Source: a virus. From it: DNA of 64,000 nt. A program made the translations under genes and the position numbers. The stretch is from IMG/VR virus record IMGVR_UViG_3300037225_001468, positions 53,742 through 117,741 of that record, one strand, 5' to 3'. A model generated the notes under the pieces. It was not told the origin of the DNA. It was given only the letters and a program-made list of their open reading frames with translations, and made no database searches. Of this stretch, positions 12,286 through 63,754 are shown in pieces; within the stretch, counting starts at the first letter, position 1, and each line of letters begins with the position of its first letter.

Positions 12286-12821
12286 TTTTTTCAATTTTAA
12301 TATGCTCTTTAGAAAAAAGAGCAAATTCATTAAAGAGATTGATGGATGTATTAATTCCTCAATTAAATGATGAAGTAGAAGTTTTGGTTGAGATAGATAA
12401 TGGACAAAAAACAATTGGAAAAAAAAGAAATAATTTACTAGAAAAATCAATTGGAACTTTTTTGGCATACATAGACGATGATGATGTTCCATCTGTTGAT
12501 TACGTCTCAAAAATATTAAATGCTCTAAAAGAAGAACCTGATTGTTGTGGAATAGAGGGGATAATAACTACTAACGGAATAAATCCTAAAAAATTTATCC
12601 ATTCTATAAAATATACAACGTGGTTTCAGAAAGATAATATATATTATCGTTGTCCTAATCATATCAATCCAATAAGAAGAGATTTGGCTATACAAATAAA
12701 ATTTCCCGAAATAAACAAAAGTGAAGATAGGGGGTTTTCTTTAGGAATATTACATTTATTAAAAAAAGAAGTTTATATTAGTGGACCAATATATAATTAT
12801 TTATATATAACAAGAAAGTGA
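12282..12821 (+). CDS. Family 2-like glycosyltransferase, probably frameshifted at its 3' end
   Basis: 179 aa. Seen: FSILICSLEKRANSLKRL at the start, GKKRNNLLEKS near 45 and YIDDDDVP near 67, the usual family 2 glycosyltransferase order with an acidic DDDD cluster. The frame ends at TGA 12819-12821, but a second long frame without its own start codon is open from 12811, so this is probably the N-terminal domain of a larger two-domain enzyme. See the linked entry at 12811-13731. Confidence 0.65.
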   Translation: MIFSILICSLEKRANSLKRLMDVLIPQLNDEVEVLVEIDNGQKTIGKKRNNLLEKSIGTFLAYIDDDDVPSVDYVSKILNALKEEPDCCGIEGIITTNGINPKKFIHSIKYTTWFQKDNIYYRCPNHINPIRRDLAIQIKFPEINKSEDRGFSLGILHLLKKEVYISGPIYNYLYITRK

Positions 12822-13731
12822 TAAAGATATAGAAAATAAAAATGTTATATCTTGTGTTCTTTTTGGAAACGACGATAGATATTGGAGTTGTTTACCATTA
12901 GTTATTTTAACTAATTATTTTTTTCATAAAGAGTTTTATTTAAGATTTTTTATACATAAAGAATGTGAAAATAATATTGTTTTTCCTTTTTTAAAAGAAA
13001 TATCAGAAAAATATGATAAAATAGAAATAAAGATTATTGATAAAACTTATCAAAATACAGAACCAACAACTTGGAGAATGATGCCATTATGGGATAATGA
13101 TATAGAATATCTTTTCTGTCGAGATATTGACTCAATCCCTTGCTCGTTAGAAGCTAGGGCAGTTAGGACATTTATTAACCATAAAGAATTTTATATTAGT
13201 AGTATTAGAAGTCATCCATTACATACTATTTCTTTAATGGCTGGTCTTTGTGGATTTTATGTTCCTAAAATAAAAAATATTTTACCATCTAATTTTGATG
13301 ATTATATTAGTTTTGGTAAAAAAAATTGTCCATATTGTTCTGATTGGAGATGGGGATGTGATCAGGAACTTTTAGATAGATTTTTTGTTAAAACAAGAGA
13401 TAATAATTTTATAAAACACATTTTAGATATTCCTGTTCAAAACAGTATTGGAGAAGTAAAAAGTATGAGAAGCATTGGTTCTTCTATTTTGCCAAAAAAT
13501 ATTTATAACACTTGTGATTTATCTAATATAAATGAAAAAGTTTTATATTTATGTGATAGTAATTATGGAAAGTTTGTAGGAATGCCATTAGAAGAATCCT
13601 GGGGATATAAAAAGGAAAACAAGATATATTTGTTAAATGAAATATTATCTATTAATGCCGATATAACTAATATGATGAAAGAGTTTTTTGATAAATATAA
13701 AAATATTAAAGAATATTTTGGAGTGATATAA
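12811..13731 (+). pseudogene. Start-less glycosyltransferase domain, likely frameshifted continuation
   Basis: The frame is open from 12811 to 13731. The first ATG is 13078, but codons upstream of it read as well-formed protein (NVISCVLFGNDDRYWSC) with no ATG, GTG or TTG. Near residue 103 of the open frame is CRDIDS, a DxD-like motif. The simplest reading is that this is the second domain of the 12282 gene, separated by a +1 shift between 12808 and 12821. A sequencing error, a real mutation or translation from 13078 only (217 aa) are the alternatives. Confidence 0.55.
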
Positions 13732-42347: not shown

Positions 42348-42614
42348 ATGTTAATATTACCATACATAGTTTTATTCGGAAATAAAAATAGATCAGAATA
42401 TATTTCCGGCTTAAAAATTGAAACCAAAAAAGAACTATCATATAAAGATGGCATTATTGAGCAGTCACTAAACACACATGAAGGAAGAGAAGCGATTGCT
42501 AAGGCGATGATTGAGCCTTTTCGTAGGAAACAAGAAACTATTTTAGAAGAAACTATTTTAGAAGAAGAATATAAGGTAGAAAAAATAAAATGTCAACCAT
42601 ACCATTATCTATAA
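42348..42614 (+). CDS. Hypothetical protein (88 aa)
   Basis: 88 residues; its 3' end overlaps the start of dnaX by 25 nt. Contains a repeated ETILEE in its acidic second half. Not recognised. Confidence 0.45.
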   Translation: MLILPYIVLFGNKNRSEYISGLKIETKKELSYKDGIIEQSLNTHEGREAIAKAMIEPFRRKQETILEETILEEEYKVEKIKCQPYHYL

Positions 42615-44797
42615 AATATAGACCTCATAAATTATCTGATGTTATAGGTCAAGAAGTGGCAGTCCAGACTTTAACAAATTCATTTAAGGATAAAAGTTGG
42701 CATCACGCTTATATTTTAAGTGGTAATTTAGGTTGCGGAAAAACGAGTGTGTCCAGGATTATGGCAGCAATGGAAAATTGTGAGAATGGTCCCACGTTAG
42801 ATCCCTGTGGTAAATGTAGAAATTGTCAAGATATATTTGATGGAAAATCTTTTGACGTAAAAGAACTAGATGCTGCTAATAGCAGAAGTATTGATGACGT
42901 AAGAGAAATGAGAAAAGACTCTCAATTTTCTCCAATGAATAGTAGAATTAAATACTTCATAATAGATGAGTGTCTAAGTCATGATACTATGATAGATACA
43001 GATACTGGAAAAATAAATATATCAAAAATAGTACATAAAAAATTAAATGTTAAAGTAAAAAGCTTAAATGAAAAAACAGGAGATATAGAGTTTAAGCCCA
43101 TTATTAATTGGTTCAAAAATTCTGGAAAATATGTATATAAAATGATTTTTAGTTCTAAGGGACATATATATCCATCAGAAGGACATTTAATATCTACCAC
43201 TGATGGATATAAAAGTGTTAAAGATCTGAATATTGGTGATAAGGTTTTAAGATGTGGTAAAAAACTATCAAATTATCAAAAACAATTTTTATATGGGTCT
43301 TTATTAGGTGACTCTTCGATACATAAAAATATTTCTGGCGGTAAAATAATAAAAAATGAATGTAAGCCAAGAATATCATGTGTTCATGGGCAAAAACAAA
43401 AAGACTATTTATTATTTAAGAAAAATATATTAAAAAATTTCGTAAAAACTAATGAAAAAGAAGAGTTTCATTGTTATAGCAAAAAATATAATAACAATAT
43501 ATCAACTTGGAGATTTAATACTATAACTAGTAACTCTTTTATAGATATTTACAATAATGTTTGTAAAAATGGCAAAAAGAATGTTACATTAAAATGGCTA
43601 AATAACATAGATTGGTGTGGAATGGCTTTTTGGTTCATGGATGATGGATCTTGTGTTTTAATAAAGACAAAAAAAGAAAGCTCATATAAAAGATTTATAA
43701 ACATAGCAACACATGGCTTTTCTAAAAAAGAATGTTTACTATTAAGGAAATGGTTAAAAACGAAAGGTATTGAATGCATTTTGATATTAGACAAAAGGTG
43801 TAATAGATATGGGATATCTATAGGAGGAGAAGGATCTAATATATTTTTGAAGAATATATCTAAATATATTCCTGATTGTATGAAATATAAATTAAAAGGA
43901 TTTGAAGGAGATATTTTTGATACTTCTTTGATAGAATATGAGAGTGAAAGTGTAATAGAAGAAAAAATTATATATAAAAAAGTTATGAAATACGAAAGTA
44001 GCACTTATGATTTAGAAATTCAAGATAATCATAATTATTTTGCTAATGGAACTTTAGTTCATAATTGCCACGGCCTTACAGGTGCCGCAGCAGAAGCTAC
44101 ATTAAAGTTTATAGAAGAGCCTCCTCCTAATGTAAGAATTATTTTATGCACTACTGATCCTCAGCTATTAAAGCCAACTATTCATTCAAGATGTATTTCT
44201 TTGAATTTTAGTAAAGTAAACTGGATTGATATTTTTAATCATCTCATAAATATAGCAAAACTAGAGAATATCTCTTATGATGAAGACGCTTTGAAGTTGA
44301 TGGCAAAAACTTCTAAAGGAAGTGTAAGAAATGCCTTACAAAACTTACAAAGTGTAGCAAGTTTTGTCGGAAAAGATAAAATAGATTTAGAAAAAACTCA
44401 AAAAGCATTAGGGATTATTGACGATAATGCTTATTTTGATTTAATTGATAGCATTATTAAAGTAGACGTTCCTTCTGCTATGATTATTATAGATAAATTG
44501 ATAGTAAAAGGTAAAAATGTTGATGTTTTAATAAAAGGATTAAATGGACATTTAAGAAATTTATTATTAGCAAGACTTTGTGAGAAGAAAATGGCAGATT
44601 TTGGCTTTATTGATGATGAGAGTAAGAGGTATGTTCATCAGTCAAAAGACATTTCACCAACACTGGTAGCAAAAATGATGGATGGTTTAATAAATGTTCA
44701 AAAAGCTATAATAGTCAATTTAGAACCACAGTATTTTTTAGAAAAATTTGCGATTGATTCGATAATAGATATGGTAAAGAGTAAAAAAGCAAATTAA
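42590..44797 (+). CDS. dnaX: DNA polymerase III clamp-loader subunit (DnaX-like) containing an intein
   Basis: 735 aa; the mature protein would have 370. The extein has the clamp-loader AAA+ layout: YRPHKLSDVIGQE, Walker A SGNLGCGKTS at residues 44-53, a zinc site (Cys64, 73, 76, 79), Walker B YFIIDE, IEEPPPNV, a sensor 1-like LCTTDP and the arginine-finger motif HSRC. It loads the DnaN-like clamp encoded nearby. An intein of 365 residues splits it right after Walker B, so no active loader can form before splicing. It is a short gamma-type form without the tau C-terminus. Confidence 0.9.
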   Translation: MSTIPLSIKYRPHKLSDVIGQEVAVQTLTNSFKDKSWHHAYILSGNLGCGKTSVSRIMAAMENCENGPTLDPCGKCRNCQDIFDGKSFDVKELDAANSRSIDDVREMRKDSQFSPMNSRIKYFIIDECLSHDTMIDTDTGKINISKIVHKKLNVKVKSLNEKTGDIEFKPIINWFKNSGKYVYKMIFSSKGHIYPSEGHLISTTDGYKSVKDLNIGDKVLRCGKKLSNYQKQFLYGSLLGDSSIHKNISGGKIIKNECKPRISCVHGQKQKDYLLFKKNILKNFVKTNEKEEFHCYSKKYNNNISTWRFNTITSNSFIDIYNNVCKNGKKNVTLKWLNNIDWCGMAFWFMDDGSCVLIKTKKESSYKRFINIATHGFSKKECLLLRKWLKTKGIECILILDKRCNRYGISIGGEGSNIFLKNISKYIPDCMKYKLKGFEGDIFDTSLIEYESESVIEEKIIYKKVMKYESSTYDLEIQDNHNYFANGTLVHNCHGLTGAAAEATLKFIEEPPPNVRIILCTTDPQLLKPTIHSRCISLNFSKVNWIDIFNHLINIAKLENISYDEDALKLMAKTSKGSVRNALQNLQSVASFVGKDKIDLEKTQKALGIIDDNAYFDLIDSIIKVDVPSAMIIIDKLIVKGKNVDVLIKGLNGHLRNLLLARLCEKKMADFGFIDDESKRYVHQSKDISPTLVAKMMDGLINVQKAIIVNLEPQYFLEKFAIDSIIDMVKSKKAN
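42971..44065 (+). mobile_element. Intein with LAGLIDADG endonuclease in DnaX
   Basis: Residues 128-492 of the DnaX product. It begins with Cys (CLSHDTMI), has SEGHLISTTDG as the block B His region, and ends TYDLEIQDNHNYFANGTLVHN-like (blocks F and G; the last residues are His-Asn) followed by the +1 Cys of the extein (CHG). LYGSLLGDSSI and FWFMDDGS are the two endonuclease helices. All residues needed for splicing appear present. Confidence 0.93.
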
Positions 44798-53192: not shown

Positions 53193-53360
53193 GTGTCTAA
53201 AAAAATTACATCAATGTATATGAGATACAAACAGAGAAAAGAGGAGGCTGTTGCTAAAATTGAACAGTCTCAAAAAGAAATGAAAAATATTTTTCCATTA
53301 ATAAAAAATAATAAAGAAGAAAAAAAACATAGTGGATGTAATTGTTCAAGAAACAAATAA
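53193..53360 (+). CDS. Small hypothetical protein (55 aa)
   Basis: GTG 53193 to TAA 53358-53360, just upstream of the CCA-adding enzyme. Strongly basic and helical, ending GCNCSRNK with a Cys-x-Cys. It occupies most of what would otherwise be a gap and reads as genuine coding sequence. Function unknown. Confidence 0.45.
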   Translation: MSKKITSMYMRYKQRKEEAVAKIEQSQKEMKNIFPLIKNNKEEKKHSGCNCSRNK

Positions 53361-53364
53361 AGTT

Positions 53365-55836
53365 ATGAATAAAAAAGAATATATCAACATAATAAAAGAT
53401 TGTTATAAAGAGTATCAGAGTAAAGAAATGTGTCTTGGTTATGCTCAAATTATCTATGATCATTTAATGTCGTTAAGATATGTTAAAGATGAATTCATGA
53501 GTTATCCTAAAAGTGTTTTAGAAGATCTTTTTAAGGAAGATAATTTATCTAAATTATCATATTATCCTTGTGATGTTATAGAACTAAGATATGTTATTAG
53601 AAGTGAAAAGATTTTAACTATTAATCCTACAATTTATTTTTCTTTTGAATTTTCAAATAAACATTTTCAAGATTATCCTTTACTTTTAGGATTTGAGTGT
53701 GAAAAAAAAGATGATGGTTTTTCTTTGTCTCGAATGAATAAAAATCCTGAATTAAAAAGAGTTTATTTGAGAGAAGAATATATAGAAACAGAAATATGTG
53801 AAACCATTCAAAACATTATTAAAGACGAGAAGGTTTGTGTTGATTTTAATGTTATTTCTGATGTTCCGGGATTAAAAAATAAGAAGTTTGATTTGTCTGT
53901 ATTTAATTTATTGAAATTTTCAGGTGTAGAAGAAATTCAGTTTACAGAAAAGGAAAAAGCTATTTTTGATTTCTTGAGATATGTAAAACAGGTAAATCCT
54001 CAATTTGCCAATGTAGTGTTAAGAGTGGCCGGCGGGTTCGTTCGTGACAAATTACTTGGAATACCAAGTGATGATATAGATATAGCTTTATCTGGTATAA
54101 CTGGAAAACCATTTGTTGAAGCAATAATGAAAGTTGGACAAACAATGAAAGATAGTCCAGTTGGAAAATCTTATTTAGTTGAACAAGATGTAGAAAAGAG
54201 TAAGCATTTAGAAACTGCTGGGGTTGATATTTTCGGGCAAAAAATAGAATTTGTAAATCTTAGAACTGAGATTTATGATCCTGCTTCTCGCATTCCAGTA
54301 ATGGCTATTACAGATGATCCTGCCGCAGATGCCATAAGAAGAGATTTAACCATAAATGCTTTATTTTACAATATAGATACTGGAAAGGTTGAAGATCACG
54401 TAAATGGAAGAGAAGATTTGAAAAATATGAACCTTCGCACTCCATTAGATCCAGTAAAAACATTTACTGATGATCCTTTAAGAATGTTGAGAGTATTAAG
54501 GTTTTATAGTAAATATCCTAATTCTCATATTGATCCTAAAATAGTAGAAGCAATGAAAAATCCAGAAGTTCAACAAAAATATTCTAAATTATCTACCGAA
54601 AGAGCTTCTAAAGAAATTCGCAAAATGATGGAAGGTGACAAAGCTGTTCCTGCCGTTAGAATATTATTAGAAACTGGTTTGTATAAAAAGGTATTTCAAA
54701 TTCCAGAAGACTGGCATGATATTACTATGGATCAAGCTAATGCTCATCATAAATTAAACTTGATGGAACATACTCTTGCTGTTATGGAAAATTATGATAA
54801 AATAGCAAAAGAACAAAATCTTCCTAAAGAAGAAAGAGGTTTAATGAGGATTTCGACACTGATGCACGATTTTGCTAAAATGAGCCCTCAAATAAGAAAA
54901 GAACATCCTAAAAAGCCGGGGCAATATAGATATATTGGACACGATCAGGAATCAGCAAGGTTTGCTGAAAACATTATGACAAGAATGGGATTTGAGCCAA
55001 CAGAGAAAAAGTTTGTTACCACAATAATTTCAAATCACATGAGTCCTCACACTATAAGACCTAATATGGATCCAAAAGCCATTGGTAGGTTTTTGAATAA
55101 AACAACTCAATATTATAAGAGAGTTATGGAACATGCACATGCTGATGAATTAAGTAAGGGTTGGTTTGAAAATGGAGAAGAGGAGACCTTAAAAAAACAA
55201 CACCAAGATGCTATAGCAAAAATAGAAGCATATCGTCAACAGATGGGGGAAAGAGTTTTTAAGCCTGTTATTGATGGCAATAAAATTAAAGCAATAGTTC
55301 AAGAAGTTGCTCCTGAAATGGTAGCTAAAAATGCTATGATAAAAACTAAAGAAGGTATGAAACCGGTTCATTATATGACTTATTTGATTGGGCAACTTAT
55401 GGAACAGCAATGGTCTCAGAGAGTAAATAACGAAGTAGAGGCGGATAAGTTTGTTCGTGGAGCAGTAAAGAACATTTTTAATCTATGGAAAAGCCAACAA
55501 TTAAATAATCCGGTAGATAAAAAAGCAGACGCCTCTTCAAGTGAAGGCCCGGATGGTGGAGACGGATATGAAGGAAATACTTTTAGGGGTAGTAAAGATG
55601 ATATGGTTTTTATGTGGCATTCTTCTCCTACTCGTTTTAGAAAAGGTTCAAAAGTAAGAATGAATACTTCTTTTGGCGGAAAAGGATTGGGTTCTGAACA
55701 AATTGAGGGAAGAGTTGTTTCTCTAAATGAAATTAAAATGATAGTAGAGTGGGAGTCTCCTGAAAAATATAAAGGGAAGAGAACGGGTTATGATTTGACT
55801 GACACCGTTCGATTAGGAAAGTTAAACGTAATATGA
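53365..55836 (+). CDS. tRNA nucleotidyltransferase (CCA-adding) with HD domain
   Basis: 823 aa from ATG 53365; an in-frame GTG at 53332 would overlap the small gene before it. Residues 1-200 are an extra N-terminal domain of unknown type. The polymerase head follows: GGFVRD at 223-228, DDIDIAL with the catalytic Asp pair, RRDLTINAL and DPLRMLRVLRF. An HD domain carries LMHDFAKM (His501-Asp502) and a later HMSPH. A C-terminal SH3-like segment ends the protein. It would repair tRNA CCA ends, with the RNA ligase and kinase downstream forming an RNA-repair set. Much longer than usual enzymes of 400-500 residues. Confidence 0.88.
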   Translation: MNKKEYINIIKDCYKEYQSKEMCLGYAQIIYDHLMSLRYVKDEFMSYPKSVLEDLFKEDNLSKLSYYPCDVIELRYVIRSEKILTINPTIYFSFEFSNKHFQDYPLLLGFECEKKDDGFSLSRMNKNPELKRVYLREEYIETEICETIQNIIKDEKVCVDFNVISDVPGLKNKKFDLSVFNLLKFSGVEEIQFTEKEKAIFDFLRYVKQVNPQFANVVLRVAGGFVRDKLLGIPSDDIDIALSGITGKPFVEAIMKVGQTMKDSPVGKSYLVEQDVEKSKHLETAGVDIFGQKIEFVNLRTEIYDPASRIPVMAITDDPAADAIRRDLTINALFYNIDTGKVEDHVNGREDLKNMNLRTPLDPVKTFTDDPLRMLRVLRFYSKYPNSHIDPKIVEAMKNPEVQQKYSKLSTERASKEIRKMMEGDKAVPAVRILLETGLYKKVFQIPEDWHDITMDQANAHHKLNLMEHTLAVMENYDKIAKEQNLPKEERGLMRISTLMHDFAKMSPQIRKEHPKKPGQYRYIGHDQESARFAENIMTRMGFEPTEKKFVTTIISNHMSPHTIRPNMDPKAIGRFLNKTTQYYKRVMEHAHADELSKGWFENGEEETLKKQHQDAIAKIEAYRQQMGERVFKPVIDGNKIKAIVQEVAPEMVAKNAMIKTKEGMKPVHYMTYLIGQLMEQQWSQRVNNEVEADKFVRGAVKNIFNLWKSQQLNNPVDKKADASSSEGPDGGDGYEGNTFRGSKDDMVFMWHSSPTRFRKGSKVRMNTSFGGKGLGSEQIEGRVVSLNEIKMIVEWESPEKYKGKRTGYDLTDTVRLGKLNVI

Positions 55837-59945: not shown

Positions 59946-60689
59946 GTGGAAATTGAAATAATAAAATACAAATATAATAGAACGCCTCATCTTCCCTGGA
60001 GTGAGAACGCTGATCTTGATGACATTTTTATTGAAGATATACATCAGTTTGATGGTAAAGAAGTTATAGTTGGAGAAATGGTAGACGGAGAAGGTACCAC
60101 AATTGCTAAAGATTATATTCATGCTCGTTCTTTAGATGGAAGATATCATATTTCTCGGCATTGGGTTAAAAATCTTTGGAATAACATAAGACACGATATC
60201 CCTGATGGTTGGAGAATATGCGGAGAAAATATGTATGCGTGTCATACGGTTATGTATAGAAAATTACCTTCATATTTTTTAGTATTTGGGATTTATAATG
60301 AAAAAAATGAATGTATTTCTTGGGATGATACTTTAGATATATGTGATATGCTTGGTTTAGATATAGTTCCTGAATTATATCGTGGTATTTATGATGAAGA
60401 AAAAGTAAAAGCTTGTTTTACGGGAATATCTAAATTTGATGGAGTTGTAGAAAATCCTGCTTACAATTCTGATCTTTTAGAACAAAAAGAAATAGATGAA
60501 CAAATGCTTGGACATTATTTTTTGCCAGCACAAGAAGGATACGTAGTAAGAAGTGTTGGTTCTTTCCACTATAATGATTTTGCTAAAAATGTTGGAAAGT
60601 TTGTTTCTAAAATGTTTGGCATAAAAATGAGAAAAAATGATAATGTTCACTGGATGACAAAACCCGTAATAAAAAATCTCTTAGGATAA
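59946..60689 (+). CDS. RNA ligase-family protein lacking the catalytic lysine
   Basis: 247 aa from GTG 59946, with GGAG 8 nt upstream. Family landmarks are clear: DGEGTT then IHARSLDGRYHISRHWVK, GWRICGENMYACH (motif III-like), SYFLVFGIYN, EGYVVR at 197-202 (motif IV) and KFVSK (motif V). Motif I should be KxDG with the lysine that takes AMP; here it reads Met45-Val-Asp-Gly48, so the lysine is replaced. It may be inactive, use another lysine or bind RNA only. Confidence 0.8.
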   Translation: MEIEIIKYKYNRTPHLPWSENADLDDIFIEDIHQFDGKEVIVGEMVDGEGTTIAKDYIHARSLDGRYHISRHWVKNLWNNIRHDIPDGWRICGENMYACHTVMYRKLPSYFLVFGIYNEKNECISWDDTLDICDMLGLDIVPELYRGIYDEEKVKACFTGISKFDGVVENPAYNSDLLEQKEIDEQMLGHYFLPAQEGYVVRSVGSFHYNDFAKNVGKFVSKMFGIKMRKNDNVHWMTKPVIKNLLG

Positions 60690-62349: not shown

Positions 62350-62637
62350 ATGCCTTATATTAAATCAGAAAAAAGAAAAGATTTTGAAACAGAAATTCAG
62401 TCAATAGTAGATAAATTAGATAAATCTGAAGAAGGTGATAATTCGGCAAAAGGTGAACTAAATTACATTATTTATTCTATTATTAAAAGATATTTGGATA
62501 AGAAGGGTATGAGATATTTTAGAGCACAAGATTTTATTGGTGGAGTTTTAACCTGTTGCCAAATGGAATTGTATAGACGACTGTTGGCTCCTTATGAGGA
62601 CAATGTGGCTATAAAGAAAAATGGGGATGTATTATGA
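62350..62637 (+). CDS. DUF6899-like phage protein
   Basis: 95 aa. MPYIKSEKR at the start, GELNYIIYSIIKRYL in the middle and MELYRRLLAPYEDN near the end match a small family widespread in phages (DUF6899). Function unknown. ATGA overlap with the kinase gene. Confidence 0.72.
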   Translation: MPYIKSEKRKDFETEIQSIVDKLDKSEEGDNSAKGELNYIIYSIIKRYLDKKGMRYFRAQDFIGGVLTCCQMELYRRLLAPYEDNVAIKKNGDVL

Positions 62638-63754
62638 GCGAGAGCGTTGTTTATTTTTTAAGAGGATTACCGGCAAGCGGAAAAAGCACTTATGCTAAAC
62701 AGCTTCTTCAAAAAGATGGCAATGCTATTCGTTTGAATAAAGACGACATTAGAGAAATGTTGGCACAGAAGAAATATACTTTTGAAGGACTATTTGATAT
62801 AAATATTCTTGCTAAGATGTTTTATTGTGACACTATTTGTTCGAAGTTGGATGAAAAGATTAAATGTAGTACGGCACAATATTATTATACTTTTGGTCCA
62901 GGACATAAATGGACTTTTGTTGATAAATGTAAAGAACATCTTGTTAGTGTTTTTAAGAAAGAAAAAGATTTTTTCGCAAAAATAAAAAATGGCAGTTTAA
63001 GTAATATAGAAACTTTAACACTAAAAATAGAAGACGAGTGTATGAAGTTGGTTGTTTTAAGTAATAAAGACATTGTGTTAGATGATACAAATTACAATCC
63101 GAAGCACTTAGGTCGTGTTAAAAAGTATTGTAGTTCTTATACTATAAAAATAATAGATATACATAAAGAGTTAGGGGTGACTTTAGAACAATGTCTTGAA
63201 AGAAACAAAAAGAGAGATAGAGTTGTTCCTGAGTTTGTTATTAGAAAGATGGCAAAACAATATAATGTGTTTTCTGAAAATAGATCAAAAAATCAGAGAT
63301 ATGAGACAAAAAATCTAATAGCCTTATTCGATGTTGACGGAACTTTGGCCAACATAGATCATAGATTACATTTTCTAAAGAGAGGAACTAACGAAAAACC
63401 AGATTGGACTGGATTTTTTGAAGCAATGGATAAAGATATAGTTAGACCTGAAATAAAAAGTATGATTGACGATGTTTATCCTTATCACGATATAGTGTTA
63501 GTCACTGGTCGTCCAGAAAAATATAGAGCAAAAACAGAAACTTGGTTAAAAAACAATAATATAAGATATAATGCTTTACTTATGAGAGAAGATGGGGATC
63601 GAAGATCAGACGATATCACAAAACAAGAGATTTTAGATCTTTATATTGACAAGAAATTGGTGGACATTGTTGTGGATGATAGAAAAAAGTTGTGGAAATG
63701 TGGAGGAAGAATGGATTAAAAGTTTGTGATGTAGGAAATGGTGAAGATTTTTAA
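62634..63754 (+). CDS. pseT: Polynucleotide 5'-kinase/3'-phosphatase, C-terminus in -1 frame
   Basis: Zero-frame product 361 aa (stop at 63717-63719); with a -1 shift, 373 aa ending at 63754. The kinase domain has LRGLPASGKST (P-loop, Gly11-Thr19), NKDDIR and DDTNYNPKH; a phosphatase HAD domain has DVDGT at 233-237, VTGRPEKYR and VVDDR. After VVDDRK the zero frame ends abruptly, but the -1 frame reads VVEMWRKNGLKVCDVGNGED, the expected family C-terminus. The junction is A AAA AAG (63683-63689) in slippery phase. An extra segment of about 65 residues interrupts the kinase between residues 50 and 130. It would heal RNA or DNA ends together with the ligase. Confidence 0.88.

Follow-up and report, generated by a model that had tools for sequence, protein, structure and literature searches.

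A T4-type polynucleotide kinase-phosphatase gene in a viral contig, very probably disrupted where an A run changed length by one base

The polynucleotide kinase-phosphatase (Pnkp) gene described here is, in all probability, an ordinary T4-type pnkp broken by a one-base length change within a run of A's after the catalytic Asp-Asp-Arg. It lies in a window of 64,000 nucleotides, positions 53742-117741 of a viral contig of 117,741 bases. The A run would have changed length by one either because the polymerase slipped in the phage or because the deposited sequence contains an error, and our reading covers indels of either origin; two of the explanations weighed below, a sequencing error and a compensated indel, are sub-cases of it, so the confidences overlap in part.

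The zero-frame open reading frame at 62634-63719 (forward strand) encodes 361 amino acids, with a P-loop kinase followed by a PNKP-type HAD phosphatase. The preliminary description took this gene for a T4-type Pnkp, and Pfam agrees: the zero frame alone scores 46.6 bits with AAA_33 and 58.6 bits with HAD_PNKP (PF25109), both above the cut-offs, and among solved structures its best match is T4 polynucleotide kinase (PDB 1ltq). Identity to the closest Pnkp proteins is about 36% along the full length and 46% within the phosphatase domain. The kinase catalytic motifs are retained, as are the invariant phosphatase columns D233, D235, T237, R293, D326, K330, D349, and R350 and the near-invariant D348. 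The kinase domain also contains an additional segment of roughly 60-80 amino acids (residues about 45-125) that is absent from the aligned homologues and is modelled with a pLDDT of 65-92, low in part.

The C-terminus of a T4-type Pnkp is not complete in the same frame. The zero frame ends after DDRKKLWKCGGRMD, with LWKCGGRMD in place of the expected residues (DDRKK-LWKCGGRMD; the end runs ...VVDDRKKLWKCGGRMD), and the zero-frame codons at the junction read AGA AAA AAG TTG, the stop codon TAA following at 63717-63719. The A run occupies 63683-63688 and, together with the next G, forms the heptamer A AAA AAG at 63683-63689 on the forward strand, where the frame of the conserved protein changes. 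As had been pointed out before, this heptamer is in the X XXY YYZ phase. The open stretch of the -1 frame starts at 63683, immediately 3' of a TAG at 63680-63682, and the conserved Pnkp C-terminus begins in it directly after the A run: from 63689 there are 21 codons, VVEMWRKNGLKVCDVGNGEDF, and a stop codon TAA at 63752-63754, so that the displaced segment with its stop spans 63689-63754 on the forward strand.

This tail is genuine coding sequence, on the evidence of its codon usage, the profile score of the joined protein, and its alignment with Pnkp C-termini. Its codon-usage log-odds of 9.0 exceed those of every 21-codon stretch sampled out of frame in the window, the in-frame median being 7.8. 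When the two frames are joined, the HAD_PNKP score rises to 89.2 bits over profile positions 4-142 of 143, compared with positions 4-124 for the zero frame only, which upholds the initial proposal that the 21 codons from 63689 encode the Pnkp C-terminus. The tail aligns to the Pnkp C-terminus across all family members, and DDRxxVVxMWRxxGL or a near variant stands at this position in T4 Pnkp and in the majority of the phage homologues aligned. A separate observation concerns one Pnkp homologue (locus L219, GTDB MAG contig CALWLH010000117.1), which has an in-frame TGA at the family's MWR tryptophan; its sequence suggests a phage or host that decodes TGA as Trp.

We compared the junction with 217 homologous loci from IMG/VR, GTDB genomes, and phage records, defined as those covering the phosphatase core and including some near-duplicates. 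At 214 of them a single tblastn alignment in one frame continues through residue 358 or beyond. The other three comprise a locus at a contig edge (L215) and two other HAD proteins that are not Pnkp (L004 and L005). Neither A AAA AAG at the junction nor a two-frame arrangement was seen at any of the 217, all of which are distant; the heptamer with two frames conserved among relatives, which the preliminary description had named as the sign of programming, was therefore not found. When phage records were searched by tblastn, 80% or more of the joined domain was found in a single place in 691 of them, and those listed are all in one piece. A search of IMG/VR for the junction with any A-run length gave no match, and profile searches returned distant homologues only, from collections that may omit near-identical records. 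Because the relatives are all distant, the lack of the heptamer elsewhere would be compatible with a programmed site specific to this lineage.

Programmed -1 ribosomal frameshifting of the dnaX kind at A AAA AAG would yield full-length Pnkp together with a product without the last helix. The heptamer has the right phase, the conserved tail is encoded in the -1 frame, and few motifs in E. coli are as efficient as A_AAA_AAG once stimulated (PMC4066793). However, stimulators of both types appear to be missing. No Shine-Dalgarno-like element was found 6-17 nt 5' of the heptamer's second base, the range given by the criteria of PMC4066793, and the sole GGTGG is 21 nt away. Downstream, the minimum free energy of -3.4 kcal/mol equals the shuffle mean (z = -0.03) in a folding model that leaves pseudoknots aside; the 63-nt tail contains no C at all. 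Rfam gave no match and no tRNA was found. The site is also shared with no homologue, and the zero-frame tail deletes part of the domain core, which would hardly make a useful shorter enzyme. Lacking stimulators, and conserved at 0 of the 217 distant loci, programmed frameshifting was set aside, and we consider it very unlikely. Even more doubtful is a variant confined to this lineage of huge-phage pnkp, in which a stimulator-independent -1 frameshift would keep the full enzyme, competent as a phosphatase, at a low ratio to a form with the kinase alone.

The phase of the heptamer does not discriminate between these explanations. If an A run behind the AGA codon of the conserved DDR changes length by one base, A AAA AAG necessarily falls into slippery phase, so the phase is not independent evidence, and on our reading the slippery heptamer is simply a by-product of the A run. 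In an AT-rich genome, little weight can be put on a slippery heptamer that is in phase, since one change in A-run length produces both the motif and the break in frame. The open reading frames of the window contain 13 in-phase A_AAA_AAG sites, and the 12 besides the pnkp site have no similar consequences; counting all X_XXY_YYZ with Y = A or T, there are 231 in-phase sites. The genome has a GC content of 28.5%; the 64-kb window has 349 runs of at least six A or T, and a slippage lesion is unsurprising given that number. The preliminary description had left the choice between a programmed site and an indel in the six A's. All tests favour the indel, whereas the programmed site has neither a stimulator nor conservation to speak for it and its motif is common. 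Among the titles and abstracts listed in a literature search, none described frameshifting in phage pnkp.

Translated as it stands, the zero-frame product keeps its kinase domain together with every catalytic residue of the phosphatase, and it lacks the final helix and the edge strand of the HAD phosphatase domain. In an AF2 model of one homologue (L013), a helix at 277-286 and an edge strand at 291-293 follow the Asp-Asp-Arg with confidence (block pLDDT 91-93). The model of the window's zero-frame product has neither and ends in 11 residues of lower confidence. Because these elements of the HAD domain are missing, the 3'-phosphatase of the zero-frame product is probably unstable or inactive, and we infer that phosphatase activity would be lost and kinase activity retained. 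On E. coli-like ribosomes, full-length Pnkp would be made in trace amounts at most: in E. coli, no heptamer without stimulators gave more than about ten times the 0.055% background (PMC4066793), which is a further point against programming. In the phage's own host the efficiency could differ. Apart from the break, pnkp looks well preserved, so any loss would be recent or partial.

It is conceivable, if improbable, that the indel is compensated, the run having changed length in the real phage while low-level ribosomal or transcriptional slippage provides enough full-length enzyme. Corrective or 'savior' frameshifting is a described class (PMC5009743), the remaining site is itself slippery, and neither domain has lost its catalytic residues. 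Yet six A's fall short of the runs of nine described for transcriptional slippage in bacteria (PMC5009743), and the RNA ligase partner has no catalytic Lys. This ligase (PF09414, 79.7 bits; 59946-60689, forward strand) lies 2 kb upstream of pnkp and belongs to a huge-phage clade. The nucleotidyl lysine of its motif I (KxDG), which is Lys in 84 of 84 aligned relatives, is Met45 in the window ligase (ATG at 60078-60080); its other motifs appear intact. Huge phages as large as 735 kb carry this type of ligase, and the nearest ligases are about 45% identical. As single-sequence queries, neither this neighbouring ligase nor the topoisomerase-like protein brought up any relatives. No second Pnkp or RNA ligase was found elsewhere on the contig, whose other 53.7 kb were read as three stretches.

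The one-base change could also be a sequencing or assembly error, the pnkp of the actual phage being one continuous frame; we regard this as a serious possibility, though one with less than an even chance. The break falls exactly at a homopolymer, pnkp is continuous in all relatives, and the contig has a second anomaly, a coding stretch without a start at 12811-13077. That region (12811-13731) has a strong coding signal from near 12823, yet 89 codons pass before a usual start codon appears, at 13078; a second indel, a lost start codon, or a non-canonical start are all possible there. Nevertheless, with 349 A or T runs of at least six in 64 kb, nearly all genes are intact, which argues against a systematic homopolymer problem. 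Judged by coding signal, the whole 117.7 kb contig has about two frame breaks; such a clean contig makes a high error rate unlikely and is still compatible with a single error. The Lys-to-Met change in the ligase, an independent defect, is in keeping with real decay. With the pnkp frame and the ligase lysine both lost from one RNA-repair set, and independently of each other, we somewhat favour a real, decaying set released from selection over an assembly error, although the two defects are not decisive.

A tRNA nucleotidyltransferase-type protein with PolyA_pol and HD domains, encoded by an open frame at 53332-55836 (forward strand), is a possible third member of the RNA-repair set. It has 834 amino acids, with extensions of about 230 residues at the N-terminus and about 200 at the C-terminus. 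If the lesion in pnkp is real, a broken Pnkp and a ligase without its lysine would suggest that the phage is independent of its RNA-repair set, and a host without anticodon nucleases is a possible reason for RNA repair being dispensable. Two other features of the window stand apart from pnkp. At 42590-44797, a clamp-loader (DnaX-like) gene is split by an intein that carries a LAGLIDADG endonuclease domain (matches to Intein_splicing and LAGLIDADG_2, residues about 141-492). Positions 1-35000 hold a long series of glycosyltransferase-like, sugar-nucleotide, and methyltransferase-like genes, as read from the starts of the open reading frames, in a number unusual for a phage contig.

Among known systems, the E. 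coli dnaX programmed -1 frameshift shares with the pnkp site the A AAA AAG heptamer in X XXY YYZ phase. However, dnaX has a Shine-Dalgarno-like element upstream and a hairpin downstream, neither of which was found at the pnkp site. T4 PseT/Pnkp (1ltq) resembles the window protein in its N-terminal P-loop kinase, its C-terminal HAD phosphatase, and its catalytic motifs, and its C-terminus, DDRxxVVEMWRxxG, is matched as well; unlike the T4 enzyme, the window protein has roughly 60-80 extra amino acids in the kinase domain and its C-terminus has moved to the -1 frame. Homopolymer indel pseudogenes and sequencing indels are also alike: as in pnkp, the frame is lost in a mononucleotide run, the conserved protein goes on in the frame beside it, and the relatives are intact. 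Nothing tested separates pnkp from this class.
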